Shown here piece by piece: positions 22,346 to 38,776 of a DNA stretch of 64,000 bases. Source of the DNA: Acidimicrobiales bacterium (GTDB lineage Bacteria; Actinomycetota; Acidimicrobiia; Acidimicrobiales; SZUA-35). The notes beneath the pieces are model-generated. The model ran no database searches. It worked only from the letters and a program-made list of their open reading frames with translations, and was not told where the DNA came from. Both the position numbers and the translations under genes were made by a program. The DNA lies in contig JAHDDW010000004.1 in the NCBI GenBank assembly GCA_020629155.1, forward strand, positions 130,018 through 194,017, given 5' to 3'. Position 1 is the first letter of the stretch, and each line of letters begins with the position of its first letter.

Positions 22346-24307
22346 CTAGACGAGCATTGTTTCAGCGTTTCTGAGCTGTCGAGTTTTTTGTCGTTTCTCT
22401 AAACCGCTCTGTGAGGCAGCAAAGGCATCTTGAATTATTCTGCTTCGAAACTGTATATCGTCAGCTTCTTCGACGAGAAGGCCAGCTTGGATGGCTGCTA
22501 TTGTTGCATCCTCGATCTCGGTTATTGTCCTTTTATGGCAGTGGCTGATAAGGTCAAGATTGAATGGCATCGAGAGCAATGAGGCTGTTTTGAGAACAGA
22601 AGTTGTTGTTTCTCCTAAACGTTCAGCTCTTCGAGTAATTAGATCGATAACGTTCTTGTTGGGTTGCAATTGTAAATCGTTTGTTGAGGCAAAGAATGTT
22701 TCTACGATCATCTGAGGGTTTCCGCCGCAGTAGCTATGTAAAGTGGCTGATGTTTTCGAAGAGGTTGGTTTATGCTCGTTGAGTAGCTCAAATGTATCTT
22801 CTGGGGAGAAAGAGTTAAGCTCGAACCGTTGCATCGGCCGTATCCGCGCTAGGTCTTTAATTTCTCCTTTCGCTGCTGCTTGGTGGAATTCTGTTGTGCT
22901 ATAGGTGATGATGAATGCTATTTTTTTCTTGCGGTTACTTTGCATTATGAAAGAGAGCAGATCAACAGAATCGCGATCGCTATGATGTATGTCTTCTATT
23001 GAGAGAACCGTTTTTGTTTCACAAGCTGTTTCAAGTAGTGCATCGATGGAGGCAAACGTGTGAGCTTTCGATGGCATGACACTCTCAGCCGCATTAGTTT
23101 TTGTTTTACTCAATTGAGGAAGCAGAGAGACTAATGCAGGATGCTGATCTAGCAAATCCTTCAGCGTTTTTTTAGGGAGTGTTTGGGCTAGAGCTGAAAG
23201 TATTTGTGTCCAAGGCCAAAGCCATGTTGAGTCGTTTTCGAGACAGCTGCTTCTGTAAAAGGTGACAGTATCGTTTAGTTGCTTGCTTAGCGTTTCTATC
23301 AGATTGGTTTTGCCTACTCCAGGTTCGCCACTGATAATAAAAAGTTCTGCTTCAGTTAGCTGTCGGATGGCTTTTTGTACTTTGTGTAGTTCTTGAGCAT
23401 GACCTATGTATGGCGAAACGTCTGTTGCTTGTAGGTCAAGTTCTTGCTGAATAGCTTCACTTTGGGGGAGTGCAGCTAACGAAGGTGGTACAAGTATCTG
23501 AGAAAGCACTTGTTTGCGTGGTGCTAACGTCTGGTCTTGGTTAAGGATTTTGACTTCTAAATCTTGTATTGGTTGGCCTGGGTCTATTCCAAGCTGGTCG
23601 ACTAGGCGGTCTCGTAGGGTTTGCGCCATTGTTAAGGCCTCTGATTGTCGCCCTGATTGATAGAGCGCAAGCATAGCAAGCTCGGTTAGTTTTTCTCGCA
23701 ATGGGTTGTTAGCTATTAGCGCTTCTATTTCGGGGATAACTGCTTTGTGTTCGCCTAAGTGTATTCGTGCGTCTAATAGAAGTTCTGTGGCAGCAAGACG
23801 TTGCTCGCCAAGGCGGTTGCGAAACCCCATGAGTGTTTCAGTTCCGGTAAGGCCAGCGCAGGGTTCGCCCTGCCAAAGGTCCAGTGCTGTCCCTAGAAAG
23901 TTGACGGTTTGCAGATAATCTTGATTGCGGTATGCGGCCCGGCCTTGGCTTAGAAACTTTTCGAAGGCGACCCAGTCGACAGCTTCGTCTGGTATGTCTA
24001 GGCGATAGCCTGGTGCTATGTTAACGAAACAGCTTGGCATGTGGCGGTTTGTGCGGTGTGGTTCAAGAAGTTTACGCAGGTTGGAGATATAGCTGCGAAT
24101 AGCGATGTGAGGTTGGGCAGGTATTTCGTCTTCCCAAACAGCGACCGCAAGTTGTTCCATCGAAACAACACGACGAGGTGATAAGAGAAGCCTTGCGAGA
24201 ACAGCAATTTGGCGTGGTCCACCAAGGGAAACTATCTCGCCGTTAAGAGCAGCAGTGACAGGGCCAAGAACAGAGTAGCTAGCTGCAGATTCGATTGTAT
24301 CGGACAT
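22346..24307 (-). CDS. SARP/BTAD-type transcriptional regulator with AAA ATPase domain
   Basis: About 653 residues. An OmpR-like winged-helix DNA-binding domain comes first (YSVLGPVTAALNGEIVSLGG, VVSMEQLAVAVWEDE, YISNLRKLLEP; about 10-100). The bacterial transcriptional activation (BTAD) helical domain follows (about 105-250, with VDWVAFEKFLSQGR and the DRLVDQLGIDPGQPIQDLE end). The C-terminal half is a STAND-like ATPase with Walker A ISGEPGVGKTNLIE and an LSIEDIHHSDRDSVDLL Walker B region. Large SARPs of this design activate nearby gene clusters in actinobacteria. The ATG at 24307 is used; a GTG at 24349 is possible. It lies just downstream of the leftward T4SS-like genes and may control them. 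Confidence 0.85.
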   Translation of the reverse strand: MSDTIESAASYSVLGPVTAALNGEIVSLGGPRQIAVLARLLLSPRRVVSMEQLAVAVWEDEIPAQPHIAIRSYISNLRKLLEPHRTNRHMPSCFVNIAPGYRLDIPDEAVDWVAFEKFLSQGRAAYRNQDYLQTVNFLGTALDLWQGEPCAGLTGTETLMGFRNRLGEQRLAATELLLDARIHLGEHKAVIPEIEALIANNPLREKLTELAMLALYQSGRQSEALTMAQTLRDRLVDQLGIDPGQPIQDLEVKILNQDQTLAPRKQVLSQILVPPSLAALPQSEAIQQELDLQATDVSPYIGHAQELHKVQKAIRQLTEAELFIISGEPGVGKTNLIETLSKQLNDTVTFYRSSCLENDSTWLWPWTQILSALAQTLPKKTLKDLLDQHPALVSLLPQLSKTKTNAAESVMPSKAHTFASIDALLETACETKTVLSIEDIHHSDRDSVDLLSFIMQSNRKKKIAFIITYSTTEFHQAAAKGEIKDLARIRPMQRFELNSFSPEDTFELLNEHKPTSSKTSATLHSYCGGNPQMIVETFFASTNDLQLQPNKNVIDLITRRAERLGETTTSVLKTASLLSMPFNLDLISHCHKRTITEIEDATIAAIQAGLLVEEADDIQFRSRIIQDAFAASQSGLEKRQKTRQLRNAETMLV

Positions 24308-24425
24308 GTGAGAGGGAGTCTTTCTAGGAACACAAGACAGCACAAACACAAAGCAAGAGCCGCCTTTACTTTTCCTAGCTCCACCAATCTACTTCATCAA
24401 GCACCATTGCGCAAGTGGAAGATTT

Positions 24426-26336
24426 TTAGTTGCCATTAACTGACCAATGCCAGGGCTCAGAGGGTAGGTTTTTGAATCCGTATTCAGCTGCGTTGTTTTT
24501 AAGCCAGACGAAAGCGGCGGAATTGCGTGACTTGATTGTTCTTCCCTTGTAAGTAAAATCCATTGCAAGCCCTTGCTCATGCATAGAGCGACCAGGCCTA
24601 GCTGTGGGTGGTCGGCAACTGCTAGAGGGGGTAGTCCAAACGTTGGCGCAGTTCTGCTTCCGAAGTGCAATTTGTCTTGAATGTGGGCGATGAGCCCAAC
24701 CTGATAATGCTATGCCATCGTCTGCTGCGGCATCGAGCATCGCTTGTATGTTCGCTTGAATTTCGGGGCAGACATCTGTTGTGACGCCTTGGATAATACC
24801 TGGACCTGCTTCTATATATGTATTGATTGGAACCATGCCATCATCGCCGACAGAACATTTAGTTATTCCACTTATATCTCCAACAGAGCCTAGGTTCTGT
24901 TGGGGCGTGTAATAGTTTGCTTTCTCGACGGTTCCTCGTGTGAAGCTTGCATCTGGATTTTTGGCATGTAACGCCACTTGTAAATTCTCGCTAAATGTTA
25001 TGGAGCCTGATTTATCAAATTTAGTCCGTATAGCCGCTATCGTGCTGTCATAGTTAGCGTTGGATTTCTCAGTTGTGCTGTCAGTCGAAGTGCGGAGCAA
25101 GCCATCTGTGTTTATCATGTCTGGGTTAGGCGCTTTTGCGCAAAGAAATTCAGCTAGTGTGGCGATGCCATCGAGATAATTATATTGATCTACAATGCCA
25201 TCTTGATTACCGTCAGTACCATATGTATCGAATGTTCCTGAGGGTAAGTCCATCGCAGGAATTTCCTTTTCAGGAACCATAACTGCCTTCCGCAGAGTCC
25301 AGGCAGTAGAACCTAAACCGCCTTTACCTCCAAGAAGCGTGTAAAGTTCTTCGGCTTGATTCATTCTTTCTGTATATTTATCTGGGAAACCCGACCGTTG
25401 AACCTCCTGAGCCGCTACGCCTGGAGGTAAATCTGTCCAACTTGCAACTTTCTGACGTTCAGGCATCTTAAAAAAAAGATCGTCATAGAACTTAAAAGCA
25501 GCCCAGCGCCTATCCATAATTTGCTCTTTCGTACCCCATCCTTGCGAAGGTCGTTGTTGAAGCATGCCGACAGAGTCTCGATCTCCTTCTGGCTTATGAT
25601 CTAACTCGTCTTCCACAAGCGCTGTCGATAGTGCGATTATCTTGGCTCTAGGTGGAGCGTTGAAAACATCTCCAACATCGAGAAGGTATTGTGCTGAAAG
25701 AAGCTTTTCTTCATTGAAGGTTATAGTGCCAGTGGGTCCTGGAAGAGTGTCTCCAAGTATGTTGTTCAACCCAGGGTTTAAAGAGTCACTTGTTGGGATA
25801 GCTGCAGTTACGTCTTCAAAACTAGCTGGTTTAATTTGAGTATTGTTGGCTTCGGCCGCTCCTTCCCCCACAGCTCCTCTGACACTGATTTCTTTAACAA
25901 TCATCTCGTCAGAACCAGTAGTGATGCCATAGAGCCCGTCTTTAATAGGAGTGTCAAGATCAGAATTGTCGATAAGACTTTGTGTAAATGCACTTCCAAC
26001 TGAAACTATGTCGCCAACAGTGCCGTCAGTAGCCACTTGTCGCGAAAAAGAAATATCACCACGAAGGTTGAGATACTTAGTGCCATGTAACGATTCTTCC
26101 TTGCCTATTCCTGCTAACACCTGCCATGGGATAGCAGAACAGCTAGGAGCTGATTTATAAGCGCTTAAAACGTGAGGTGGTATCTCCTCAGCAGCTCGAT
26201 CAACCTGCAATGATGCTTTCCTGGTTTCGCTATCTATAACAATAAAAAGAACTATAAGAATAATTCCCAAAACCAGAAGGCCAAGGGCAATAACTGCGAA
26301 CACTACTGCTCCTTTTTCATTATCCTGGTTCGCCAT
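24426..26336 (-). CDS. Membrane-anchored murein hydrolase: split transglycosylase plus VanY-like carboxypeptidase
   Basis: 636 residues. An N-terminal membrane anchor (about 10-34) precedes an exported region. Residues about 52-86 (IPPHVLSAYK, IPWQVLAGIGKEES) are the start of a lytic transglycosylase with its catalytic Glu. A module with SVGMLQQRPSQGWGT (about 258-272) follows, and the calcium-binding-like DGNQDGIVDQYNYLDGIA typical of the same transglycosylase fold comes only at about 380-400. The C-terminus (about 520-636) is a VanY/M15 carboxypeptidase with SMHEQGLAMD and EPWHW metal and catalytic motifs. Gram-positive conjugation systems use such an enzyme (TcpG, VirB1-like) to open the wall. 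Last gene of the leftward T4SS-like arm. Confidence 0.8.
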   Translation of the reverse strand: MANQDNEKGAVVFAVIALGLLVLGIILIVLFIVIDSETRKASLQVDRAAEEIPPHVLSAYKSAPSCSAIPWQVLAGIGKEESLHGTKYLNLRGDISFSRQVATDGTVGDIVSVGSAFTQSLIDNSDLDTPIKDGLYGITTGSDEMIVKEISVRGAVGEGAAEANNTQIKPASFEDVTAAIPTSDSLNPGLNNILGDTLPGPTGTITFNEEKLLSAQYLLDVGDVFNAPPRAKIIALSTALVEDELDHKPEGDRDSVGMLQQRPSQGWGTKEQIMDRRWAAFKFYDDLFFKMPERQKVASWTDLPPGVAAQEVQRSGFPDKYTERMNQAEELYTLLGGKGGLGSTAWTLRKAVMVPEKEIPAMDLPSGTFDTYGTDGNQDGIVDQYNYLDGIATLAEFLCAKAPNPDMINTDGLLRTSTDSTTEKSNANYDSTIAAIRTKFDKSGSITFSENLQVALHAKNPDASFTRGTVEKANYYTPQQNLGSVGDISGITKCSVGDDGMVPINTYIEAGPGIIQGVTTDVCPEIQANIQAMLDAAADDGIALSGWAHRPHSRQIALRKQNCANVWTTPSSSCRPPTARPGRSMHEQGLAMDFTYKGRTIKSRNSAAFVWLKNNAAEYGFKNLPSEPWHWSVNGN

Positions 26337-26344
26337 TTTTTGCC

Positions 26345-27490
26345 CTAGAGATCGACTAAGATTTCACTTACAAGCTTTGCCTCGCTGTCTTGCTTTATTT
26401 CTACTGTAATTTGTTTAGTTACTCGCTGTGTGACCTCGCTCGTGCTGCGTTCTTCAACTTCTGCCGTTATCCGATATGCACCTTCAGTTAGTTTGCTGAT
26501 TCTAGGTTCTGATACAACAGTCACTTTTTTTTCAAACCGTTTTGCTTGTTCTGTCTCAAAATTTTCTGGCTGATCTTCTAGAATCTCTATATAGAGCTCA
26601 GGTGTTGTGAATGCTTTAAGACTCTGGGTCTTTTCCGTATAGCTCACTGTATAGTCTTCCATAAAATATGCTTGTCCAAATTGTTTTAATAAGGTTTCGG
26701 CCGAACTTTCAGTAACCAATGTGCTTCCTGGCAGAAAATCTTCTGCTGTTGGCGGTTCTCCGTCTCCGCTTTCAGACGGCAATGAGGTGGTATTGCCACT
26801 TGTCGTGCCTGGATTGATTAAACTCGCTTGATCTGAAACAGCTTGAATCGAAGGATTGAAGTTTGTAAGGTCAATCTTAGGCGGGATTGTTGTTCCGAAT
26901 GCATTGACTTGCGTCTTCCATCCGTCAGGTGCGACGAGTTTCCAATCGTTGTCTTCCCATCGTAAATTGGTTCTTAAATAAAAGTATGCGTCGTCATTGG
27001 AAAAGTAAACATCCACTTCAGCTAAGGCGTCTGTTAAAACGTTAACTTCCCATCCTGCAATAGGTAGGCTAGAAGAATCTGGTGTTCTTTGCAATCGAGC
27101 ATTATCAGTTGCTTGTTGAAGTGAAGAGGAGAATTGACCCCTCACGCTAGTAGCGTAAGCTAGATCAGAAACAGACTTTGGTGCAACGTCTGAAGTTGAA
27201 AACAAATAGTGAGTCGCCGCAAGCCCTGCGCCGTTTTCGTTTTGGGTAAAGCCAGAAGTGAAACCTTTTTCCGCTTTAGTAGGTCCGAACGTTGGTGAAA
27301 TTGGTAGATTGTATCCCGCTACTTCTCGCCATTCTAATGATTCTATCCTGATCGAATTTTTAGGCCCGTCATCAGCGCTGTTGTCTTGGCCGCCCCTAAA
27401 AAACAACGGCAAAAACAAACCCGCAGCAAGAATCAACCCACCCATAACGCAAAGCAAGATGATGAGCTGTTTGCGAGTCGAGCTGTCCAT
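26345..27490 (-). CDS. TcpC/VirB8-like single-pass conjugation protein
   Basis: 381 residues. A short cytoplasmic start and one membrane helix (LIILLCVMGGLILAAGLFLP, about 9-28) are followed by an exported region. The first exported part (about 45-215) contains NLPISPTFGPTK, GFTQNENGAGLAATHYLF and KLVAPDGWK, a combination seen in T4SS-linked proteins of actinobacteria. After a low-complexity linker, the last 120 residues (LLKQFGQAYFMEDY, AYRITAEVEER, TKQITVEI) look like the NTF2-like fold of VirB8/TcpC. The role would be a structural bridge of the secretion channel. It lies 3 nt after the VirB2-like gene and 8 nt before the hydrolase gene. Confidence 0.65.
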   Translation of the reverse strand: MDSSTRKQLIILLCVMGGLILAAGLFLPLFFRGGQDNSADDGPKNSIRIESLEWREVAGYNLPISPTFGPTKAEKGFTSGFTQNENGAGLAATHYLFSTSDVAPKSVSDLAYATSVRGQFSSSLQQATDNARLQRTPDSSSLPIAGWEVNVLTDALAEVDVYFSNDDAYFYLRTNLRWEDNDWKLVAPDGWKTQVNAFGTTIPPKIDLTNFNPSIQAVSDQASLINPGTTSGNTTSLPSESGDGEPPTAEDFLPGSTLVTESSAETLLKQFGQAYFMEDYTVSYTEKTQSLKAFTTPELYIEILEDQPENFETEQAKRFEKKVTVVSEPRISKLTEGAYRITAEVEERSTSEVTQRVTKQITVEIKQDSEAKLVSEILVDL

Positions 27491-27493
27491 GAG

Positions 27494-27814
27494 TTATTTT
27501 ACAATTATTCCAACGAGTTGAGTCGCACTTAACATTAGGATTAGGCCTCCTGCTACCCATGGAAGACTACCTAAAGCTTTGGCTGCGTTCTCTGGACTGT
27601 TGCCACCTCGTGCAACAATTATTTTTATGCCGATAAGTATCACTGTAAAAATAGCTGCAACAGCTGCTATCCAGCTCAAATAATTTAGGATACTATTGAT
27701 ATCTGCTAGATTCTGGCTCCCGTTTTTGAAACCTGTAGGTGGGGTGGGATTGGGATCTGTAATTCCTGGGACTTGGAAAGCTAGTAAGTAAGCTTGATGG
27801 AGTAGATTATTCAT
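27494..27814 (-). CDS. VirB2/TrbC-like small membrane protein, paralogue 2
   Basis: 106 residues: a polar exported N-terminus, then two hydrophobic helices (LNYLSWIAAVAAIFTVILIG and LPWVAGGLILMLSATQLVGI) joined by a short loop, KIIVARGGNSPENAAKA. This two-helix layout with a small polar loop is that of VirB2/TrbC pilins and of the matching small proteins in actinobacterial conjugation clusters. It shares the I-x-I-(R/K)-I-x-x-AR turn with the products of 28436-28792 and 38348-38776. Probably a pore or pilus subunit of the secretion system. Confidence 0.65.
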   Translation of the reverse strand: MNNLLHQAYLLAFQVPGITDPNPTPPTGFKNGSQNLADINSILNYLSWIAAVAAIFTVILIGIKIIVARGGNSPENAAKALGSLPWVAGGLILMLSATQLVGIIVK

Positions 27815-27828
27815 TGATATGTGCCTTT

Positions 27829-28356
27829 CTAATTGTAAGTTCTATTTGTATGATAATGGATACGGTTGGCCAATAATGTTAGAGAACGATGATATTTTTT
27901 CGATTGTCTGTTTAGGTTGCCCTTGTGCCATTGCCACACATGAGGAAAAATAACAACATCTGCTCTGCCGGTTAGAGCTCTTAATTTAAGTTTAGTGCTG
28001 AATGGTATAGTTAATGGAGTTTCACGAACAACAGCAACGAGATGAATCTGATGTTGGGCAGTAAGCTCCGCAGCTTTGCTTGCCCCAACATACGAGGAGT
28101 TGACCACAACTATTTTTGTTTGCGGCAAATTATTTTGATCTGAAGCGAGTAGTGAATTGACTTGACAACGGCATTGCGGCTCAAAAGCTCTTATCCCTAT
28201 CAGCTGTAAATGATTAACTAAAGTCGTTGTTCCAGAGCCGCCAGTACCTCCAAAAACCATCGCTGTTTGCGGCGTCTCGAAATTTGTTTGGTTCTCATAG
28301 GTTTGATGTAAAGTGTCAGAAGTGACTGCATGTTGGTCGTGAATCTGGGTGTTCAT
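27829..28356 (-). CDS. Small P-loop protein lacking the Walker lysine, in the T4SS-like arm
   Basis: 175 residues. A disordered, Gln/Thr-rich N-terminus (about 30 residues) precedes AMVFGGTGGSGTTTLVNHL, which has the shape of a ParA/MinD/CpaE P-loop, but the invariant Lys of GKTT is Thr or Ser here (GSGTTT). A strand KIVVVNSSYVGASKAAEL follows and then HLVAVVRETPL and ADVVIFPHVWQWHKGN. The protein is shorter than normal ParA-like ATPases. It may bind nucleotide weakly or be a scaffold. A good AGGAGG site precedes the ATG. It sits between two VirB2-like genes, so a role in the secretion system is likely. Confidence 0.5.
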   Translation of the reverse strand: MNTQIHDQHAVTSDTLHQTYENQTNFETPQTAMVFGGTGGSGTTTLVNHLQLIGIRAFEPQCRCQVNSLLASDQNNLPQTKIVVVNSSYVGASKAAELTAQHQIHLVAVVRETPLTIPFSTKLKLRALTGRADVVIFPHVWQWHKGNLNRQSKKYHRSLTLLANRIHYHTNRTYN

Positions 28357-28435
28357 GCTTCTGCCTCCTGTTCAACCTTTATGATAGAGCATTGAATGGA
28401 TAAAATTTAGGCAGGAGACAATTTATTGAATATTT

Positions 28436-28792
28436 CTAATAGACAACATCTATAATTGATACCGCAGCGCCAGAGATTATTAAGCCAAGAAAAACAAATC
28501 CTATTGCCTCAATCGATTTTGCAGATTGGTTTGGGTCATTGCTTAAACGGGCGATTATGATTCTTGTGCCAATTATAATAAGTGATCCAACCGCTAAAAC
28601 AGCAAGGACCCATTGCATATAGTCGAGATATTGTTGCAGTTCATCATAAAACTTGTCGCTATTGCCTGTTGTTATTTGCTCTGGTGGGCATGTGGCTATC
28701 TCAAGCTGATATTTAAAATCGTCATTGTTGTTGGTGACATTTTTGCATTTAGGATTAAGCAGATAAAAGCTAAGCAAAAGATTGTTTATCAT
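28436..28792 (-). CDS. VirB2/TrbC-like small membrane protein, paralogue 1
   Basis: 118 residues. The N-terminus (about 12 residues) is hydrophobic and may be cleaved. A polar exported stretch with two Cys residues (CKN..., CPPEQ) follows, then two membrane helices, WVLAVLAVGSLIIIG and AIGFVFLGLIISGAAVSIID, joined by TRIIIARLSNDPNQSAKS. The helix-loop-helix matches the product of 27494-27814 (IIVARGGNSPENAAKA). First gene of the leftward T4SS-like arm; it is divergent from the J-like gene with 133 nt between them. Confidence 0.65.
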   Translation of the reverse strand: MINNLLLSFYLLNPKCKNVTNNNDDFKYQLEIATCPPEQITTGNSDKFYDELQQYLDYMQWVLAVLAVGSLIIIGTRIIIARLSNDPNQSAKSIEAIGFVFLGLIISGAAVSIIDVVY

Positions 28793-28925: not shown

Positions 28926-30290
28926 ATGGCAACACACTTTATGATTTTGGGCGTTGGGTTAAACGCGGCAGAGGACGAGATTCAAGATGCCTATGATCGG
29001 ATTAAGGAAGAGGGAACTTCTAGTCAAGTTGCAAAAGATGCCTATCATACTCTTATTGACCCTCAAATAAGGGAAGAGTATATAGAGACACTTCAACAGC
29101 GACAGGATGCTAGGCAGGTAAGAGAACGAAGAGATCTTGTCGAAACTTTCCAGAAAAAGAAAGATGCAGCCGAATTAGCTTCGCTCGCTGACCAATTTAA
29201 TCTGGTTGAAAGGCGAGTGAAATCTTTAAGCGCTCAGCGTGGTGACGCGGCAGATGCTGCATTGGCAGATGCTGCATTGGCAGATGTTGAGCGAGTCACT
29301 AGAAAATATATTGGAAGTGATGATGACCCGAAGGCTGCATTTAAGGAAAAAATACGTATCTTAGTTGCGTTTCTTAATACTTTAGCTGCGGATTCAGAGT
29401 CGGTTAAGGTTGTTAATAATGTTAAAAGCGAACAGAAGGATTTGCAAGGCAAGCTTCGTCGAATCGAATTGAAGTACAACAATGAAGTTAACAATCTTAA
29501 GCAAAAACACTCTTTGGAGGATCCTAGCCGTCCTCCTGCTGAACTTCGGCAACAGAATCGAAAAGGACTATCTTCTCTTTGGTCATCGCTTAGCAAGGTC
29601 GAGAAAGCTGTAGCAGCTGGAGGTGTTGCTGTCGTTGGTCTCTTAGCTGCTATTGGGATTTCCAGAATGTCTGGGTCGCCTGATTCTGCTTCAGCGTCGA
29701 CTGGAACCAGTACTCAAGCCGACCGGCCTTCGGGTGTTATCAGTGATGATGGTCCTGAAGTTGGGGTTTATGAATCGACAGTGCTTAGTGACGGGTCAGT
29801 AGTGGATGTAGAGACCATCAGTTTTGCTCCTGAAGGAGTTAAGACAAAAACACTTGCTAATGGCGTCGAGTACTATCGCACCTCGGACGACACATTAGTT
29901 TTCGTTGGTGAAGATCTTACGCCAAACCAAGTCGTTGGACTTGTTGAGGATTATGACACTGAGGTTGTTGGTGATGTCGAGGTTGTTGAAGACACTGCGG
30001 TCGATGATGTCGAGGTTGTTGAAGACACTGCGGTCGATGATGTCGAGGTTGTTGAAGACACTGCGGTCGATGATGTCGAGGTTGTTGGTGATGTCGAGGT
30101 TGTTGAAGACACAGAGGTTGAGGTTGTTGAAGATACTGAGCAGGCTTTAGGTAACGTGCAAACCATTAACTATGAAGTAAATGGGCAAGATGTAGAGATC
30201 CATGTTCCAAACCCTGACGGGAACCCGATAGAACTTGTTGGTGTGCAGGTCAACTCTTCTAACATTTCTGGTGCATCTCAGTCAATGTAA
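28926..30290 (+). CDS. J-domain-like membrane protein with acidic exported repeats
   Basis: 454 residues, an unusual architecture. Residues about 4-56 follow a DnaJ domain (HFMILGVGLNAAEDEIQDAY, AYHTLIDPQIREEYI), but the HPD tripeptide that stimulates Hsp70 is absent, as the loop is shortened to EEGTSSQ. A charged coiled-coil-like region runs to about 215. One membrane helix (AVAAGGVAVVGLLAAIGI, about 226-243) and an exported Ser/Asp-rich tail follow, which includes the 11-residue repeats VEVVEDTAVDD (about 350-400) and ends in a small beta-rich unit. It opens the rightward T4SS-like arm. Likely a structural or assembly factor; the function is not known. Confidence 0.6.
   Translation: MATHFMILGVGLNAAEDEIQDAYDRIKEEGTSSQVAKDAYHTLIDPQIREEYIETLQQRQDARQVRERRDLVETFQKKKDAAELASLADQFNLVERRVKSLSAQRGDAADAALADAALADVERVTRKYIGSDDDPKAAFKEKIRILVAFLNTLAADSESVKVVNNVKSEQKDLQGKLRRIELKYNNEVNNLKQKHSLEDPSRPPAELRQQNRKGLSSLWSSLSKVEKAVAAGGVAVVGLLAAIGISRMSGSPDSASASTGTSTQADRPSGVISDDGPEVGVYESTVLSDGSVVDVETISFAPEGVKTKTLANGVEYYRTSDDTLVFVGEDLTPNQVVGLVEDYDTEVVGDVEVVEDTAVDDVEVVEDTAVDDVEVVEDTAVDDVEVVGDVEVVEDTEVEVVEDTEQALGNVQTINYEVNGQDVEIHVPNPDGNPIELVGVQVNSSNISGASQSM
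29973..30134 (+). repeat. 33-bp coding tandem repeat
   Basis: Three nearly identical 33-bp units (29973-30005, 30006-30038, 30039-30071) starting GATGTCGAGGTTGTTGAAGA are followed by shorter, decayed units to about 30134. They encode the acidic VEVVEDTAVDD repeats of the J-like protein. Their identity at DNA level indicates recent expansion and likely length variation between strains. Confidence 0.85.
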
Positions 30291-30393: not shown

Positions 30394-32226
30394 ATGGGTA
30401 TCGTTCGTTATGGAAAAAAGTTTTACTCTCGGTCAAAACTTTATGTAGCTGTAGCGGTGATACTCTGTGGTGTTTTTTTTCAGCCTGCTGTAGGTTCAGC
30501 ATCCTTAGCTGCCGCAGATCAAACGGTCGATAACGTTTGTGGCGAGGTGGAGGAAGTATTATCAGGGCCTGGGTGGGGAGATCGAGCGCTAGATGCAGCA
30601 AATCCTCTTCCTGAAGTTTGGGGTGCTGGAAAGGCTATTGTCAATCCGATAGACACGGCGAAAGATGGGGCTAGTCGAGCTTTAGATAATTTCGGAGATC
30701 AGCTTAGATTTAAAACACTAGCTGCAGCCGGCCAGTTCATTTTTGGAATGGATGAAAAAGTTCTTAAAAATCACCTTGAACTAGTTCATGGATCAGTAAC
30801 TAATGAAACCCCTGAAGTTTACGATAAGGCTTTTGAATGTCAAAATCAATACAGGGAATATTTTGAAACTGAGGGGTACGACCAAAAGGAAGGGTTTTCG
30901 TTTAGAGCGAAAAAGAGCAATGGAATTACACTTACCGCTGCGTCTGCGTATGCAGATGTTGATCTCGAAAGAAATGCTTGGTCTCTCATCGGCCAGCTTT
31001 TCGGATATCAAAGAAGCAATGAGCTCTCAGGCAACCCTGAACTAGTTACTGAGGTAGTTCTTCCAATTAATGCTTTGTTCTATCCAGCATCTTTAGGACT
31101 GGCTCTAATAGGCTTGATGTGGCAATGTGCGAGGCTTATCGTCTCGCAGAAAAGCGAAGGCTTGACTATTGTGATTAAGTCTTTAGTGACAATAATGTTC
31201 GTCCATGGATTGGGAACCGTTGCTGCTATGATTGCTGCTAGAGCAGCAGATGCTTATACCAACTATATTGGAGATGTTCTAGGTGAAACTGTAAGTATTT
31301 TTGATATTTGGCAAGGTATGGCTGTTGGGTTCATGTCTGTCTCCTGGGCGTGGATGTTAGCCTTGATACTTTTCCCATTTCTGTATCTTGCAGCTCTTAT
31401 ATTTCAGTTAATGTTACTGATGAGGCAAGTGCTTGTAGTTTTCATGATAGGTTTACTGCCATTTGCAGCATCTGGTCTGATGTTGAAAAGTACAAGAGGG
31501 TGGCTACTGCGTTTAGTTGGTGCAATAATAGGTGTTTATTTGTTTAAACCAGCTGCAGCCTCATCTGTTGCCTTTATCTTCATGATGATTGCTAGTTCAT
31601 CGTTTACGATGACTATTATTGGTGTCATACTCCTATGTTTTTTGCCCTTTACTTTGCCGAAGGTGATGAAGTTATTCTCGTTTGCGGGAGTGAACGGCGA
31701 TAATACCGCAAATAACATGTTTAAGCGATTTTTATCTGATGCAGCTGAGTACAAAAGTCAAACAGCTGCTGGTGGCGGTGGCGGTGGCAGTGGCAGTCCT
31801 AGTAACCTGGGTCTAACTGGTCAAGGGCCGAAGCTGCCAGGGGGCGGCGGTGGCGCATCAGTTAACAAGTTGCAGGGAAGCAAGCTGGCAGGCAAAGTTG
31901 CGGGCTTAACCGCTCAAGGTGCGGCCGCTTTTTTCTCAGCTGGGTCTTCTGTCGCTGCCCAAGGAGCGGCGAAAGCTGCGGCCAGCGGTGGGAAAGCCGC
32001 ACAAATAGCTTCAAAGGCGCAGCAGATACAGCAATCCGCAAAGGGACAGAAAGCATTGTCAATAGCTAAAAGTATACCTAGCTATGCTAACCCCTTAAAT
32101 TCTGGCAATGTTGACGCCAAAACGTTTGTTGCTGGAACAGCAGCGACAGGTATCGCTGATGGCGTAGGTGATGCAGCGAACACAGGAAAAGATTTCAATG
32201 AGGACTTCGTAATGCGGGACATGTGA
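30394..32226 (+). CDS. VirB6/TrbL-like polytopic membrane protein
   Basis: 610 residues. A basic start and hydrophobic stretch (LYVAVAVILCGVFFQPAVGSASLA) form a signal peptide. An exported region of about 170 residues with two Cys follows. Six or more membrane helices lie between about 215 and 430 (for example ASLGLALIGLMWQCARLI, MLALILFPFLYLAALIFQLM, TIIGVILLCFLPFTLP). The C-terminal 170 residues are Gly/Ala-rich (GGGGGGSGS, GGGGGASVN) and probably disordered and cytoplasmic. This layout fits VirB6/TcpH/TrbL proteins, the inner-membrane channel of T4SS. An internal MxxxR-rich LMRQVLVVFMIGLLPFAAS segment is typical. Followed after 43 nt by the SCO6880-like gene. Confidence 0.72.
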   Translation: MGIVRYGKKFYSRSKLYVAVAVILCGVFFQPAVGSASLAAADQTVDNVCGEVEEVLSGPGWGDRALDAANPLPEVWGAGKAIVNPIDTAKDGASRALDNFGDQLRFKTLAAAGQFIFGMDEKVLKNHLELVHGSVTNETPEVYDKAFECQNQYREYFETEGYDQKEGFSFRAKKSNGITLTAASAYADVDLERNAWSLIGQLFGYQRSNELSGNPELVTEVVLPINALFYPASLGLALIGLMWQCARLIVSQKSEGLTIVIKSLVTIMFVHGLGTVAAMIAARAADAYTNYIGDVLGETVSIFDIWQGMAVGFMSVSWAWMLALILFPFLYLAALIFQLMLLMRQVLVVFMIGLLPFAASGLMLKSTRGWLLRLVGAIIGVYLFKPAAASSVAFIFMMIASSSFTMTIIGVILLCFLPFTLPKVMKLFSFAGVNGDNTANNMFKRFLSDAAEYKSQTAAGGGGGGSGSPSNLGLTGQGPKLPGGGGGASVNKLQGSKLAGKVAGLTAQGAAAFFSAGSSVAAQGAAKAAASGGKAAQIASKAQQIQQSAKGQKALSIAKSIPSYANPLNSGNVDAKTFVAGTAATGIADGVGDAANTGKDFNEDFVMRDM

Positions 32227-32269: not shown

Positions 32270-33742
32270 GTGAGCGATCAACCGTTATATTCAGGGTGGC
32301 GTCGGAAAAAAGGCTTAGGCTTCTTTGGATTTAGTCAAGGAGAAACTGCGGTATTAGCGGTTCTACTGTTTGTTGTCTTGCTTATTGGCGGGACAAATCC
32401 ATTTGCCCTATTGTACCTGATTCCATTATTCTTACTTTCTTCCCTAGCTTTTTTTCGCTACAACGGCATGCCTGGGTGGGATTATCTACGACGAGAGATG
32501 TCTTGGCGCTGGGCAAAAAACCGAGGATACTTAGAGTTTCAATCAGGCCTAGTTAACAAAAACCCGTTGCCAGATAATGTAGAGCTCGAACTGCCTGGTT
32601 TACTCGCTTCAACAAAACTGATGGGAATCAGAGATGGCTATAATGAATGGGCGCTTGTATGGGATCAAACGACGGATTTTCTTACAGTGAATCTTCTCTG
32701 TAACGTGCAGTCTCCTTGGTTGGTCGACACTGACCAATTTAATGGATGGGTGCATCAATGGCATCAGTGGCTTGCATCATTAGGATTTGAACCTCAAATC
32801 GAACACATAAGCGTAACCGTTGAATCAGCGCAAGCTTCTGGAGCGCAGGTTGCTGAGAATATCCGTAATTCATTAGTGCCGACTGCTCCAGCACATGCTT
32901 ATGATGTCGTTTCGTCTTTAGCCTATATGGGCAGGGAAAGTGCTTCAATAGTTGAAACCCGTATAGCAATAACTTTTAATCCACGTAAGGGCTCAGCAAA
33001 AGGCAGAACGGTTGACGAACGAGCTGCAGAGATCTCTCGTCTGCTTGTTTCTTTGGAGAATAAACTTTTGAGCTGTGGCGTTTCCAGCGTGCGTAGAATG
33101 TCACCACAAGAAATGATAGGTAACCTGCGTATTGCCTATGACCCAGATGCTCACGATGAAGTGTCAGCTGCGCAAGCTGTTGGTGCTGTTGACCTTCGGT
33201 GGGTGCAGGCAGGGCCCATGGCTGCGAAAGAAGACAGAGATTTCTACATGCACGATAGCGGTATTTCTGTTTCCTGGGTCTGGTCAGATGGGCCACGTTC
33301 TCCAGTGCCAGCAACAATACTGATGAACATGGTAAACCCTGGACCTTACCAAAAAAGGTTTACAATATTCTACGAACCTTCAGACCCTGGAGAAACAGCA
33401 CGAAAACTAGAGAATGAAAAACTAGCGTTAGAAGCAAAAGCAATGCTAATGAAACGCTCATCTTCAAACGAAACTGAACGGGCTCGTCTTGATCGACAAT
33501 TTGCTGAGATGGCCGCACGAGAAGAGGCGAAAGGCTCAGGTTTTGGAGATATTTCAGTCTACTTGACAGTAACTGTTGGGTCCACAGATCATTTAGAAGA
33601 CGCGATTATTGATATCGGAGCGAGAGCAGCGCAATCAAAGCTAAAGCTTAGACTTGCGACATGTAGCCATGCAGCTATTTTCGCAGCAGGCTTAGGCGTA
33701 GGTATTCGCCCTTCAGCAAAACGTGGCAAAGGTGTTTTTTGA
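32270..33742 (+). CDS. SCO6880-family protein of actinobacterial T4SS-like loci
   Basis: 490 residues. The N-terminus starts YSGWRRKKGLGFFGFSQGETAVL and continues into two membrane helices (about 26-62), the signature layout of SCO6880-type proteins that accompany VirB4-like ATPases in actinobacteria. The rest is a large soluble part with WALVWDQTTDFLTVNLLC near 125-142 and VTVGSTDHLEDAIIDIGARA near 447-466. Its function is not established; it may correspond to the N-terminal (VirB3/PrgI plus N-terminal VirB4) part of the ATPase module. GTG start with an AAAGGAA ribosome-binding site. The stop overlaps the VirB4 start (TGATG). Confidence 0.75.
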   Translation: MSDQPLYSGWRRKKGLGFFGFSQGETAVLAVLLFVVLLIGGTNPFALLYLIPLFLLSSLAFFRYNGMPGWDYLRREMSWRWAKNRGYLEFQSGLVNKNPLPDNVELELPGLLASTKLMGIRDGYNEWALVWDQTTDFLTVNLLCNVQSPWLVDTDQFNGWVHQWHQWLASLGFEPQIEHISVTVESAQASGAQVAENIRNSLVPTAPAHAYDVVSSLAYMGRESASIVETRIAITFNPRKGSAKGRTVDERAAEISRLLVSLENKLLSCGVSSVRRMSPQEMIGNLRIAYDPDAHDEVSAAQAVGAVDLRWVQAGPMAAKEDRDFYMHDSGISVSWVWSDGPRSPVPATILMNMVNPGPYQKRFTIFYEPSDPGETARKLENEKLALEAKAMLMKRSSSNETERARLDRQFAEMAAREEAKGSGFGDISVYLTVTVGSTDHLEDAIIDIGARAAQSKLKLRLATCSHAAIFAAGLGVGIRPSAKRGKGVF

Positions 33743-35307
33743 TGGGGCTATTTACTAAAAAAGAACCTGAAGAAGTAAAAGATTCAGGAGAAATTCTGAC
33801 TCGGAAGCAAAAAAAGAAAGCAAAAGCCTTAGCCGATCGAATTGAGAAGGATAAAAACTTTTTTTTGAGAAACCTCCCAATAGCGCCGCCATGGGGGAGG
33901 CGTACTCGTAATGCTGGGCGTGTGGCATATATTGCAGAAACTACGAGGCTTTCTGCGCCGACAACGCAGGCATGTGGGCTGTTTCCCTTTGTTGCTGGTT
34001 CGGGGGCGCCTAAAATCGGTGTGCCTCTTGGGCTGCACCTGATGAATCAAGAGACAGTGTGCATGGATCCATTCAAATGGGTCCAACACGGTCTAGTCAC
34101 TAACCCTGGTATTTTTATTATCGCACAACCTGGTTGTGGCAAGTCAGCCACAGTGAAACGGCTTATCACTGGCATGACAGCTTTTGGATCAGTGCCGATC
34201 ATTCTCGGTGACGTTAAACCAGACTATCCACGAGTAGTTGAAGCGCTTGGCGGTCAGGTTATCGAAATGGGTCGAGGCCGTGACACTATCAATCCTTTAG
34301 ACGCAGGCCCTATTCGACGTGCTGCAGAGCGTCTTAGTGCTGAAGGATTCGAAAAAGAAGCGCGAGAACTTATGGCTGAAGCTGTCGGTCGACGCCTGGC
34401 GCTGCTTATCGCCATCTGTCAGGTTGGACGTAACGGTCAACCTGTTGTGCCTGCTGAAGAAGTAATGTTGGCGGCATGTCTGACACATTTCGAAGAAATA
34501 GGCGATTCGCAGCCAACGATCCCTGACGTATTAGAGCTTCTTCGTAATCCGTCAGATATTGTTATAAGCTCTGCTGAAGCTAGAAGTCGTGAAGAGTTCG
34601 ACCAGGACTCAAAACCGCTACGGCAAACGCTTTCATTAATGCTCACAGGCACGCTTAAAGGGCTATTCGACGGCCCCACAACACATCCAATAGACATCAA
34701 TGCTCCTGCTATTGAAATTGATATCTCTTCAATCGCACGTTCAGGTGAAGAAAACGCGATATCGTCTGCCATGTTAGCAGTTTGGGCGTATGGGTTTGGC
34801 GTCGTCGACGCCGCTATGGCGCTAAGCGAAGCTGGTTTAGAGCCGCCGCGTGACTATATTGCTGTGCTTGACGAGCTATGGCGAGCATTGCGAGGAGCCC
34901 CTGGCTTAGTCGATCGAGCTGATGCGCTGACTCGTGTAAACCGTGCCCGTGGCATGGCTCAAGTTATGGTCACTCACTCTCTCGACGACCTTGAAGCACT
35001 GCCAACAGAGTCAGACCGCCGCAAAGCTCGTGGTTTGGTTGAACGTTCAGGCACGGTTATCCTCGGAGGTGTTTCGCCTCGTGAAGCAGATGCTATAAGC
35101 GGCGTGGTTCCATTGTCAGAAAGCGAAAAGCAGATCCTCACAAGCTGGCAGGCCCCATCTTCATGGAGCGGTACAGAAGCTCACCCTGGACGAGGTCGTT
35201 TCATGATTAAAACGGGTGATCGTACAGGTCTGCCTATCCAAGTGCTTCTTTTGCCAGTTGAACTGGAGCTTTATAACACGGATCGAATCGCTGGACAAGA
35301 TCGCTAG
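33742..35307 (+). CDS. VirB4/TraC-like conjugation ATPase
   Basis: 521-residue cytoplasmic or membrane-associated ATPase that would power the secretion channel. Walker A is AQPGCGKSA (128-136) and Walker B is VLDELWRAL (375-383). Other VirB4 hallmarks are ILGDVKPDYPRVVEALGGQVIEMG after the P-loop, TINPLDAGP, a central helical insertion (about 190-290) and a late MAQVMVTHSLDDLEAL segment that corresponds to the arginine-finger region. It is shorter than VirB4 proper because the N-terminal part seems to be supplied by the preceding SCO6880-like protein. ATG at 33742; the TTG at 33739 overlaps the upstream stop. Last gene of the T4SS-like core on this strand. Confidence 0.88.
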   Translation: MGLFTKKEPEEVKDSGEILTRKQKKKAKALADRIEKDKNFFLRNLPIAPPWGRRTRNAGRVAYIAETTRLSAPTTQACGLFPFVAGSGAPKIGVPLGLHLMNQETVCMDPFKWVQHGLVTNPGIFIIAQPGCGKSATVKRLITGMTAFGSVPIILGDVKPDYPRVVEALGGQVIEMGRGRDTINPLDAGPIRRAAERLSAEGFEKEARELMAEAVGRRLALLIAICQVGRNGQPVVPAEEVMLAACLTHFEEIGDSQPTIPDVLELLRNPSDIVISSAEARSREEFDQDSKPLRQTLSLMLTGTLKGLFDGPTTHPIDINAPAIEIDISSIARSGEENAISSAMLAVWAYGFGVVDAAMALSEAGLEPPRDYIAVLDELWRALRGAPGLVDRADALTRVNRARGMAQVMVTHSLDDLEALPTESDRRKARGLVERSGTVILGGVSPREADAISGVVPLSESEKQILTSWQAPSSWSGTEAHPGRGRFMIKTGDRTGLPIQVLLLPVELELYNTDRIAGQDR

Positions 35308-35309
35308 GT

Positions 35310-35489
35310 CGCCGCCTTATATGTGGAGTACAACTAGATGTATGCTCTCAAGCCATTAGGAACTACGAGATAGTCGCCTATGATGCTACTTACGTCGCAT
35401 TGGCAGCTATCCTGGATGCTCGGTTGCTGACGTGCGATCAAAAAGTTGCGAATGCTCCTTCGCTTTCTCTCTCCACTATCGTTTTCTAA
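35310..35489 (+). pseudogene. Remnant of a VapC PIN-domain toxin
   Basis: About 42 codons ending at TAA 35489 read YEIVAYDATYVALAAILDA and then RLLTCDQKVANAPSLSLS, a good match to the C-terminal third of VapC with the last two acidic ligands (in AYDATYVALA and LLTCD). The N-terminal two thirds are missing and no start codon gives a plausible protein; an upstream fragment in another frame (ALYVEYN, then a stop) hints at a frameshift. The gene starts right after the VirB4 stop and has no antitoxin beside it. Confidence 0.75.
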
Positions 35490-35576
35490 TCGTCTAGCAA
35501 GAAAAGCTAACCTATTGGCACCTATAAGAAGAAAGTAGTACTAGTATGGACTATCGAACATACCTGGAGAATACTA

Positions 35577-35750
35577 ATGGCTACAAGTTCTAAATCAGTC
35601 GAATCAGAAGAGCTGCAGATTAAACAACAAAATCGTAAAGCAAACATTCAATGGATAGTTATCGCATTGCTTGGGATTATCGGCCTGGTCGCACTTGTTA
35701 TCTTTTTTGGCGATACATCATCTGTGCCAACGCAACACAGTCCTCAGTAA
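35577..35750 (+). CDS. Small single-pass membrane protein
   Basis: 57 residues. A charged cytoplasmic start (ATSSKSVESEELQIKQQNRK), one membrane helix (IQWIVIALLGIIGLVALVIFF) and a short exported tail. The ATG is well placed after CTGGAGA (35563-35569). No family was recognised. It lies at the head of the group that includes a tail-anchored-like Pro/Glu-rich protein, ApbE and a ferric-reductase-like membrane protein, so it may belong to that electron-transfer group or to the T4SS-like locus before it. Confidence 0.65.
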   Translation: MATSSKSVESEELQIKQQNRKANIQWIVIALLGIIGLVALVIFFGDTSSVPTQHSPQ

Positions 35751-35844
35751 ATTTTCGAGTTCAAAATGAAGGCGGGTGTCCACCTGCGCTATTTTCAGTT
35801 GTATCTTCCTATAAACTGAAGATAAGCGGAGTAAGGCAGAACGT

Positions 35845-36201
35845 ATGGCAAAAGCACATCCAGCAAAAAAAGCTCGATTCCTAGCAGGCTGCATGGGGGC
35901 AGCTGGTTTCGCTTTAACCTCGATGGCCATCCTGCAAGATTCCCTTGTTTCTCATGAAATTTCTTCTTCATTTCTGCAGGCCCCTCAGTCAGAACCACAA
36001 CCTGCCAGCATTAATAGCGAAGCGTTTGCATTGCAAGGGTCTGCGGCTCCGGCTCCAGCAGCGCCTCAAAGTATCGAATCTGAGCCACTTGAACCTTCGC
36101 CAGCTGAGGTTCCTTCAACAGTAGCAAGCACAGAAGCCGAACAGCCCGCACCGAAGGCAGAAGCAGCATCAGAATCTGACGCTGAAAGCGATGCCAGCTA
36201 A
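35845..36201 (+). CDS. Pro/Glu/Ala-rich protein with N-terminal membrane anchor
   Basis: 118 residues. A basic start (AKAHPAKKARFLA) and a weak hydrophobic helix (GCMGAAGFALTSMAIL) are followed by an exported, disordered tail made of Pro, Ala, Glu and Ser (for example APAPAAPQS, EPLEPSPAEVPS). Wall-spanning spacers look like this. No heme-, flavin- or metal-binding motif was found. Only 5 nt separate it from apbE, so the two are cotranscribed. Confidence 0.6.
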   Translation: MAKAHPAKKARFLAGCMGAAGFALTSMAILQDSLVSHEISSSFLQAPQSEPQPASINSEAFALQGSAAPAPAAPQSIESEPLEPSPAEVPSTVASTEAEQPAPKAEAASESDAESDAS

Positions 36202-36206
36202 ACAAA

Positions 36207-37121
36207 GTGGCTGCGCAGACGCTTGAAACTTCTTTTCCTTGCATGGGGACAACAGCACAGCTTATCCTTGTCGGAGCGCTACCTAGCCAGCTACATCAGG
36301 CACAGAAATTTGTTGAGCAATGCGAACGTCTATGGAGCAGATTCGACCCTGACTCAGAACTATCGCAGCTCAATAACGATGCTGGTAAACCAGTTGTCGT
36401 GTCAGAGTCAACGTATAGCCTTATTAGACAAGCTTTGCTGGCTTGGAAAGCTACTAAAGGGGTGTTCGACCCAACGCTTGGGGCTGCACTTCAAGCTGCT
36501 GGTTACAATATCAGTTTTGACACAATCCCTGACTTTTCTGAAGCACCCGAACCACAACCCGCGCCCACTCCAACCGCGATAGAAATGAACGACAGCCTAA
36601 AAAGTGTACAACTGCCATTGGGCACTGTTATAGATCTTGGAGGAATAGCGAAGGGATACTGCGTTGATATTCTGGCGGCAAAATTGCAACAAGACGGAGT
36701 AAAAGGCTGCTTACTTAACCTAGGGGGAGACATTATCGTTCAAGGCACGCCTAAGGAAAATCCAGCTTGGCGAGTAACATTGAACTGCCCAGGGGCCGAT
36801 GAAAAAATAGTTGTGAATCTGCAAGCAGGAGCTGTTTGCACGTCTTCAGTTGTGAAGAGAAGCTGGCATAGCCAAAATGGGTTGGAAACTCACATTCGCG
36901 ATCCGTTAACTGGCAGTTCGGTCGAAAGCGATGTTTTAACAGTTAGTGTGATTTGTGAACGAGCAACGCAGGGTGAAGTTCTTGCCAAAACTGCTTTACT
37001 TATGGGCAAAACAGAGGGTGCTAGTTTTTTGATTGATCAAGGAACGGCTGGTGTTATGGTTGACGATAAAGGCCAGGTCGAAAGAATAGGGGATCTGTCG
37101 CAGTACGAAATAGCTAGGTGA
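36207..37121 (+). CDS. apbE: FAD:protein FMN transferase (ApbE)
   Basis: 304 residues. ApbE transfers FMN from FAD to a Ser/Thr of exported flavoproteins. Family blocks are clear: FPCMGTTAQLIL at the start, WSRFDPDSELSQLN (about 44-57), FDPTLGAALQA, VIDLGGIAKGYCVD (about 146-159), LLNLGGDIIVQG (about 172-183) and THIRDPLTGSS (about 231-241), where Asp binds metal. No signal peptide precedes the catalytic part, so it is either cytoplasmic or held by a partner. The GTG at 36207 is the first start after the upstream stop. Its flavoprotein substrate is not evident nearby. Confidence 0.92.
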   Translation: MAAQTLETSFPCMGTTAQLILVGALPSQLHQAQKFVEQCERLWSRFDPDSELSQLNNDAGKPVVVSESTYSLIRQALLAWKATKGVFDPTLGAALQAAGYNISFDTIPDFSEAPEPQPAPTPTAIEMNDSLKSVQLPLGTVIDLGGIAKGYCVDILAAKLQQDGVKGCLLNLGGDIIVQGTPKENPAWRVTLNCPGADEKIVVNLQAGAVCTSSVVKRSWHSQNGLETHIRDPLTGSSVESDVLTVSVICERATQGEVLAKTALLMGKTEGASFLIDQGTAGVMVDDKGQVERIGDLSQYEIAR

Positions 37122-37188
37122 TGCATTCAAAGTTTGTTATTCCTACGCAAATGGGAGTTGACAAAGGTTGCGGTTACACTAGAACCAG

Positions 37189-37761
37189 ATGCAATTCTCT
37201 GATTTCGAACTAAGCGATCAATTTTTTTGGTATTTAGTCAGGTCTTCTGGAGTGATGGCTTATTTCGCTGCTGGAGCTAGCGTTCTGGTAGGTTTACTTC
37301 TCTCATCGCGACTGTTAGGACGCAAACCTTCGTTTCCATGGCTAAATGATTTGCATAGATTTTTCAGCTCGATGTTGGTTCTTTTTGTTGTTGTTCATAT
37401 GGTTGCACTCTTATTTGAAGAGTGGACACAATTTGGGGTAGTGGATATCTTAGTCCCTGGTCATGCGGCAGAAGCCGACATGATTCCTGGTTCTAAAAAT
37501 GAAGGTAGTATAAGATTAACGCTTGCAATTATTGCGTTTTGGCTTCTAGTTATTGTTGAAGGCACATCACTTATTAAAAAACATTTACCAAAAAAATTGT
37601 GGCATAGCATCCACCTATTGTCATTTCCTATTCTTGGCCTAGCTGCGTTGCACGGTTATCAAATGGGTTCTGATGCCGACAATATAGTACTGTTGGCCTT
37701 GAGTGCTTCGATGGCTACAGCGTTAGTAATGACAGGGATTGGACGACTTTTCAGGCTGTAA
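37189..37761 (+). CDS. Ferric-reductase-like transmembrane heme protein
   Basis: 190 residues with about five membrane helices. Four His residues are spaced as bis-heme ligands of the ferric-reductase (YedZ/NOX-like) fold: His56 and His70 (LHRFFSS, VVVHMVAL; 14 apart) and His142 and His155 (SIHLLSF, LHGYQ; 13 apart). It would pass electrons across the membrane to an exported acceptor, which fits its place next to apbE. No cytoplasmic NAD(P)H/FAD domain is fused, so an outside electron donor is needed. A TTGACA (37157-37162) lies upstream but the -10 is not clear. Confidence 0.8.
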   Translation: MQFSDFELSDQFFWYLVRSSGVMAYFAAGASVLVGLLLSSRLLGRKPSFPWLNDLHRFFSSMLVLFVVVHMVALLFEEWTQFGVVDILVPGHAAEADMIPGSKNEGSIRLTLAIIAFWLLVIVEGTSLIKKHLPKKLWHSIHLLSFPILGLAALHGYQMGSDADNIVLLALSASMATALVMTGIGRLFRL

Positions 37762-37782
37762 GAAAGTAAATGAGGCTTTTCT

Positions 37783-38343
37783 TTATCTCATGCCTTGCGC
37801 CTTCACAATACGTTGAGAAACTTCGATAAGCTCTTGTTTCTTCACCTCATAGGAGATGACCTTATCGACGCTATGTTGGCCTCCGCGTGCTTTGCCTGAA
37901 ACAACATCAAGCTGCATGCCATCTAGGGCAGGAACTAATGCAATTGCTTGGAAGCCTTCTTTGGGGCCAGGAGTTGAACGTTTATCTTCTCGGATAAGTT
38001 CTTGAGACTCCCAAACCCAACAGTCATTAACACTTATGAATCGGCAAGTATGGTTCGTATAGCTTTTAGAAACTAAACCACCTGGGCAGACGACAACATT
38101 ACCTTCGACCCAGGGGAGTAGCGGCAAATTATTAGAACCGAAACCGTTAAGAAAAGCCTCTTGTATGATTGCATCTAAGTCACCCCTGGCAAGCGCACGT
38201 TCTCGTTGGATTTGAGTAATAGTCTCAGCAGCAGCAGATAGCGTAGATTCGTCAAGTCTAGAAAAAACCGATACCATATCCTCTGGCTGTTCAGACAGAA
38301 GCTTTGCAGTCGCCGTTATGCGCCTTTGAGAAGCAGAGGTCAA
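37783..38343 (-). CDS. Hypothetical protein coupled to a VirB2-like gene
   Basis: 186 residues, soluble. The first 65 residues are helical (LSEQPEDMVSVFSRLDES, ETITQIQRERALARGDLD); the rest is predicted beta-rich with LPLLPWVEGNVVVCPGG, HTCRFISVNDCWVWESQELI and three Cys. No family was recognised. Its gene begins 4 nt after the VirB2-like gene, so the two are probably cotranscribed and function together. It is convergent with the heme protein gene (gap 21 nt). Confidence 0.6.
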   Translation of the reverse strand: MTSASQRRITATAKLLSEQPEDMVSVFSRLDESTLSAAAETITQIQRERALARGDLDAIIQEAFLNGFGSNNLPLLPWVEGNVVVCPGGLVSKSYTNHTCRFISVNDCWVWESQELIREDKRSTPGPKEGFQAIALVPALDGMQLDVVSGKARGGQHSVDKVISYEVKKQELIEVSQRIVKAQGMR

Positions 38344-38347
38344 ATCT

Positions 38348-38776
38348 TTAGGTAGTGACCTGAGTCAAGAAATATGCGATAAGAGCAGGAGCTGCAAGTA
38401 CAAGAACCAACGCACCAATAATCCAGCCGATTCCATTGCTGCTTTTCTTTGCCCCATCGACATCGCCAGTGGCACGTGCAAACATGATACGAATAGCAAT
38501 GACGATAAGAGAGCCAATTGCTGCAAGCACCGCAAAAACTGTTAGAGGAGCAAGAAGTTTATCTCCAAGTGTGGCAAGTGATTCAGGGTCGCTAGGGTCA
38601 AGCGTCACGCCACCAGATTTGCTGGCATTATCAGCAGCGGTAACAGCATCAAATAGTGCACTGCCGCCTTCCTGGGTTGTTTCAGTGCTATCAACAGTTG
38701 TTGAGGAACCTGGTGCAACAGTTACTTGCGTCTGAAATAGAGCTGATTGAGCTGCAACTAGTGATTTTAAGAACAT
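38348..38776 (-). CDS. VirB2/TrbC-like small membrane protein, paralogue 3
   Basis: 142 residues: a short hydrophobic start, a Ser/Thr/Gly-rich exported stretch, and two helices (PLTVFAVLAAIGSLIVIAI and IGWIIGALVLVLAAPALIAY) joined by RIMFARATGDVDGAKKSS. The I-x-I-R-I-x-x-AR turn matches the two VirB2-like proteins in the 27.5-28.8 kb arm. A GAGGAG site precedes the ATG. It probably provides another subunit of the same apparatus even though it lies 3 kb beyond the VirB4 gene. Confidence 0.62.
   Translation of the reverse strand: MFLKSLVAAQSALFQTQVTVAPGSSTTVDSTETTQEGGSALFDAVTAADNASKSGGVTLDPSDPESLATLGDKLLAPLTVFAVLAAIGSLIVIAIRIMFARATGDVDGAKKSSNGIGWIIGALVLVLAAPALIAYFLTQVTT

Follow-up and report, generated by a model that had tools for sequence, protein, structure and literature searches.

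Described systems resembling the locus

Chromosomal MOBless T4SSs were described in 2011, and those that have been tested are mostly protein secretion systems (PMC3158045). Almost every function known for Gram-positive T4SSs consists in transferring DNA one way, and it is a long-standing question whether Gram-positives evolved dedicated effector translocators (PMC12857230). The T4SS of Streptococcus suis 89K is a Gram-positive system with a VirD4 and is reported to secrete protein (PMC12857230). It differs from the Acidimicrobiales system described here in its location on a pathogenicity island and in having a reported protein substrate. The T4SSs of Patescibacteria, which are derived from MPF_FATA, are relaxase-less and chromosomal, carry several divergent VirB2 pilins, and usually have VirD4 far from virB4 (PMC12102498, PMC12857230). 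In Streptomyces, cmdABCDEF (SCO4126-4131) and SCO6871-6884 also contain chromosomal VirB4-like and SCO6880-like genes that do not serve plasmid transfer (PMC2782261). Two actinobacterial plasmids, Glutamicibacter pRE117-1 and the Verrucosispora NA02020 plasmid, carry cassettes composed of the same gene families as the system studied here, arranged as one operon in the order DUF6668, pilin, TcpC, VirB6, SCO6880, VirB4, VirD4, and DUF4913; a MOBP relaxase and MobC are encoded close to it.

In contrast to the plasmid cassettes, the Acidimicrobiales genes are set in two divergent arms, VirD4-DUF4913 is located on another contig, and no relaxase was found. The likeness to the Streptomyces genes is one of description, and the system here differs in that it comes from the order Acidimicrobiales and retains VirD4-DUF4913 together with a wall hydrolase and a set of three pilins. 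It is distinguished from the Patescibacteria systems by a different host phylum, by a split VirB4 of the SCO6880 type accompanied by DUF4913 and DUF6668, and by its occurrence, at this level of similarity, in only one genus among 61 genomes. No paper describing it was found in the open-access literature searched. While MOBless systems were already known, the Acidimicrobiales genus, the SCO6880-type machine, and the coupling module in a ribosomal neighbourhood are new here.

Locus structure and gene content

The window, the whole stretch of 64,000 nucleotides that was analysed (G000:C3:130018-194017), belongs to the 3.17-Mb genome of an uncultured Acidimicrobiales actinobacterium, assembled in 59 contigs and 97% complete. 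It was compared with two genomes of the same genus (G001 and G002) and with a wider set of 61 related genomes. As a guard against circularity, the independent profiles were built from actinomycete chromosomes and plasmids only, with this genus left out. All genes named in the initial annotation are present where it had placed them, and profile searches back the SCO6880, VirB4, VirB6, TcpC, pilin, VanY, and SARP assignments (Table 1). Every cassette component matches profiles that contain no sequence of this genus, and weak Pfam matches (PrgI, TraG, and similar) were set aside as a basis.

The two divergent arms recognised earlier were confirmed, with 133 bp separating pilin B from the J-like gene. 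A scan of this gap for sigma-70-type promoters gave no more than expected by chance. The left arm runs from pilin B through the DUF6668-type P-loop protein, pilin A, and the TcpC-like protein to the VanY hydrolase and then the SARP gene, and the right arm consists of the J-like, VirB6, SCO6880, and VirB4 genes; a third pilin, pilin C, lies away from both. Two features of SCO6880-type T4SSs are present in the window: TcpC/VirB8, VirB6, and a VirB2-like pilin occur in one locus, and VirB4 is divided between an SCO6880-family gene and a separate ATPase gene, the two sharing an overlap of 4 bp. The Walker A (GQPGCGKS) and Walker B (AVLDELW) motifs of VirB4 are intact.

Table 1. Predicted features of the locus, with positions in the window and supporting matches
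Feature	Position	Strand	Evidence
SARP/BTAD regulator with AAA_16 ATPase domain	22346..24349	-	PF03704 E=4.4e-39; downstream of left arm
VirB1-like murein hydrolase	24426..26336	-	C-terminal VanY DD-carboxypeptidase PF02557 E=9.1e-12
TcpC/VirB8-like membrane protein	26345..27490	-	independent actinomycete profile E=1.2e-25; hhalign 98.6%, residues 49-195
VirB2-like pilin A	27494..27814	-	PF18895 E=8e-10; independent profile E=9.4e-22
DUF6668-type protein, ParA/SIMIBI-like fold without Walker lysine	27829..28356	-	11-member independent DUF6668 profile E=2.3e-10; hhalign 93.7%
VirB2-like pilin B	28436..28792	-	independent profile E=2e-17
J-like membrane protein with C-terminal acidic 11-residue repeat	28926..30290	+	weak DnaJ match E=0.0076
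VirB6-like polytopic membrane protein	30394..32226	+	independent profile E=4.3e-30; hhalign 99.4%
SCO6880-family protein, taken as VirB3/VirB4 N-terminal part	32270..33742	+	NF042935 E=1.7e-121; independent profile 4e-141
VirB4-type ATPase	33739..35307	+	independent profile E=1.6e-196; ATPase half NF045975 E=3e-17, TIGR00929 E=1.7e-5
orf186, genus-specific protein	37783..38343	-	57% identical to L076:20061-20645; adjoins pilin C
VirB2-like pilin C	38348..38776	-	independent profile E=3.7e-13; conserved position in congeners, matches in L035 and L037

The VanY hydrolase has a membrane anchor and transglycosylase-like N-terminal and middle parts, and its residues 193-346 match phage endolysin and tape-measure profiles. 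The TcpC/VirB8-like protein has a longer C-terminus than the plasmid proteins, and no solved structure was matched by its sequence. Pilin B shares 33-37% identity with pilins A and C. The genus-specific orf186 also occurs near the VirD4-containing locus of G001; it has no plasmid match, a scan of viral contigs for relatives was empty, and its structure model (pLDDT 57) was too poor for a fold search.

The lysine-less P-loop protein, previously regarded as an unusual extra, turned out to be a relative of DUF6668, a standard gene of the plasmid cassettes with which that of pRE117-1 begins. The Walker lysine is absent in all eight aligned rows, which share the motif GGxGGxGxTTL. A first pairwise BLAST against one DUF6668 protein gave nothing useful and the relation was seen only with a profile; the Pfam scan of the protein listed no direct match to PF20373 itself. 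The structure model (pLDDT 78) aligned to CooC1 and ParA with VIA-align Z scores of 11.2 and 10.2, respectively, and the fold search placed ParA/CooC-like rows at the top, with generic alpha/beta folds nearly tied.

For two other genes, the earlier reading stands in part. The gene of the J-like protein is present, but its DnaJ match lies below the cut-off and the N-terminus lacks an HPD motif; the protein is found in this genome only, with no match elsewhere among the loci searched. Within the gene, 33-nt in-frame repeats (29928-30161) encode the acidic unit VEVVEDTAVDD, C-terminal to the membrane helix. The proposed tie of the SARP regulator to the system is one of adjacency only: the gene follows that of VanY on the same strand, at a distance of 76 bp. 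A recurrence of BTAD/SARP genes beside T4SS loci in other families found no confirmation, the candidates showing LysM or nothing.

Coupling protein on another contig

The locus had been described as lacking a coupling protein, which is true of the window but false of the genome. A VirD4 gene (PF02534, E=1.4e-29; TraG-D_C, E=8e-28) was found by the genome search at G000:C37:95818-98073, followed next by a DUF4913 gene (E=1.4e-18). The pair stands directly after rpoA-rplQ-truA and faces these genes, where the ribosomal operon ends. In G001, truA is followed by rplM and rpsI (ribosomal names from sequences), with no VirD4 there. VirD4 and DUF4913 follow VirB4 in every other complete cassette examined among the actinomycete loci reaching far enough, whereas the cassette in the window stops at VirB4. 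Because the VirD4 of this genome groups with that of a second G001 locus (sisters, support 100), it is a presumed partner of the genes in the main locus. Examining the main locus by itself can wrongly suggest that a system of this kind has no coupling protein.

Relaxase, integrase, and att sites

In agreement with the initial annotation, no relaxase, coupling protein, or integrase was detected in the window by a scan that covered, outside the arms, nearly all ORFs of at least 130 aa. The check was extended to the rest of the genome, where PF03432, PF08751, and PF03389, representing MOBP, MOBF, and MOBQ, gave no match above the cut-off. MOBP (PF03432) was found in none of the 61 related genomes, G001 and G002 included, and relaxases from plasmids with this type of cassette exceed the PF03432 cut-off, so the search should detect them. 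MOBF (PF08751) was found in 24 of the 61 relatives, which indicates a sensitive test, and in none of the three members of the genus. With a chromosomal VirB4, mating-pair components, and no relaxase of the classes searched, the system corresponds to a MOBless T4SS in the sense of Guglielmini.

Borders typical of an ICE were not seen: there is no integrase in the window, no att-like flanking repeat across 20.0-41.5 kb, and no tRNA in the window, and on the right flank the chromosomal gene order is shared with the congeners. A single mobile-element-like gene occurs close by, an Rpn-family PD-(D/E)XK nuclease gene (40347-41300) beside the conserved block; neither G001 nor G002 showed it at the corresponding site.

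Conservation within the genus

The order SCO6880, VirB4, orf118, ApbE, ferric-reductase-like protein, pilin C, lipoprotein, ZnPep, HPPase, M18, DUF4388, and histidine kinase is common to the three genomes of the genus; orf118 has no significant match in G002. In both G001 and G002 the contig ends close to SCO6880, which limits the comparison upstream of it. In the VirB4 tree, the genus forms one clade (SH-aLRT 99) with a second G001 copy as sister, and VirB4 relatives elsewhere in the family and order are distant (about 25-30%) and patchy. VirB4 is 72% identical between this genome and G002, with dN of 0.25 and synonymous sites so saturated that no dN/dS value is given. The neighbouring ApbE and M18 are only 36-43% identical, and this difference points to selection to keep the VirB4 sequence.

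In contrast, the 16-kb unit as a whole is not conserved. At this site, G001 carries a different gene upstream of SCO6880 and no VirB6. Its only detected VirB6 is in a second locus beside nrdAB, which contains pilins, TcpC, VirB6, SCO6880, VirB4, VirD4, and DUF4913, so that the G001 genome has two VirB4s; the nrdAB site of the genome studied here is without such genes. A cluster assignment had suggested that the nrdAB locus of G001 also contains a VanY/SLT gene; this was rejected as a single-linkage artefact, the gene being a DUF1996. The conserved position expected earlier under domestication is seen for SCO6880-VirB4, pilin C, and their neighbours, which are ordered alike in both congeners, but not for the entire locus. 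Judged from gene order, SCO6880-VirB4 and pilin C appear fixed in position, and the rest appears to have moved within the genus.

Origin and possible function

We consider it probable, at roughly 0.6, that the locus is a chromosomally inherited MOBless T4SS derived from an actinobacterial plasmid-type conjugation cassette, which has kept its coupling protein and probably serves protein export. The chromosomal, relaxase-less, conjugation-derived machine proposed in the initial annotation is supported by the absence of MOBP, MOBF, and MOBQ from the genome, the absence of an integrase from the window, and the partial synteny in two congeners. However, the MOBless state alone is not equivalent to protein secretion, as the Streptomyces cmd genes serve another role.

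In the proposed mechanism, the window would provide the envelope-spanning part, composed of pilins A, B, and C, TcpC/VirB8, VirB6, SCO6880, VirB4, the VanY hydrolase, and the DUF6668 protein, and the VirD4-DUF4913 coupling module would have moved to the site after rplQ-truA. The VanY hydrolase may open the peptidoglycan, after which TcpC and VirB6 would form the membrane channel and VirB4/SCO6880 would power the assembly of short VirB2-type fibres. VirD4-DUF4913, made from its separate locus, would then feed substrates into the channel. As no relaxase was found, protein is the likeliest cargo, which may be delivered to neighbouring cells or the medium. We infer that the separated loci form one active machine and that this machine moves protein. 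A more far-reaching and tentative proposal is that of a dedicated Gram-positive protein translocator, which would have arisen from a plasmid conjugation cassette by relaxase loss and dispersal and would operate with three divergent pilins and a coupling protein in the ribosomal-operon neighbourhood. Whether effector translocators evolved in Gram-positives can be asked concretely of a MOBless system like this one, which is partly conserved within a genus and keeps its coupling protein.

The main rival explanation, although unlikely, is a cell-biological role like that of Streptomyces cmdABCDEF, in which a VirB4/SCO6880 membrane complex would serve growth, septation, or chromosome segregation and not secretion. 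CmdB is VirB4-like and membrane-located, SCO6880 resembles CmdC, and chromosomal cmd is dispensable for the transfer of an SLP2-derived plasmid while its loss disturbs sporulation and chromosome segregation (PMC2782261). Part of the present locus is likewise chromosomal and conserved, but the retention in the genus of VirD4-DUF4913, a wall hydrolase, and more than one pilin suggests envelope transport, and VirD4 does not figure in the published account of the cmd operon (PMC2782261). Still less likely is a working conjugation system that has an unrecognised relaxase or mobilises elements in trans. Its close homologues belong to conjugative plasmids whose cassettes come with MOBP relaxases, VirD4 is retained, and six relaxase families (MOBV, MOBT, MOBC, MOBH, MOBB, and MOBM) lie outside the MOBP, MOBF, and MOBQ search. 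Yet MOBP is the relaxase class of the related cassettes and MOBF is widespread in the order, and neither was found in the three congeners; the lack of an integrase in the window and the position of VirD4 in a ribosomal neighbourhood on another contig also speak against conjugation.

The splitting of the system and the variation of copy number and gene content among congeners, with two VirB4s in G001 and no VirB6 at the site, could be expected if one or more integrative elements were decaying and had left scattered remains. We regard this as improbable, since all ORFs of the locus and the ATPase motifs are intact, the VirB4 protein is strongly conserved while its synonymous sites are saturated, and the GC content of the locus (0.451) is close to that of the flanks (0.463-0.470). 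A role in DNA uptake or release, as in ComB, is suggested by the relaxase-less T4SSs that serve DNA uptake in Helicobacter. ComB is generally described as having no coupling protein, whereas one is retained here, and the window showed no competence gene, which makes such a role very improbable. The conjugation-derived MOBless T4SS that probably exports protein is the preferred reading.

Other features of the window and of G001

Between VirB4 and pilin C (35845-37761), orf118, an ApbE flavin transferase gene, and a ferric-reductase-like membrane protein gene are found in all three genus members and may constitute an unrelated redox unit. Further downstream (44909-48847), a conservon-like row of genes encodes DUF4388, a histidine kinase, a Roadblock protein, and small GTPase-like proteins; G001 and G002 share the first two. 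Between the SNF2 helicase and EAL genes, two arrays of 20-bp tandem repeats lie side by side (20215-20326). In G001, two tandem pilin genes (L036:4271-5051) encode nearly identical mature parts with different leaders, and two proteins without a known family follow DUF4913 (L036:13382-14943) and are possible substrates or accessory proteins.
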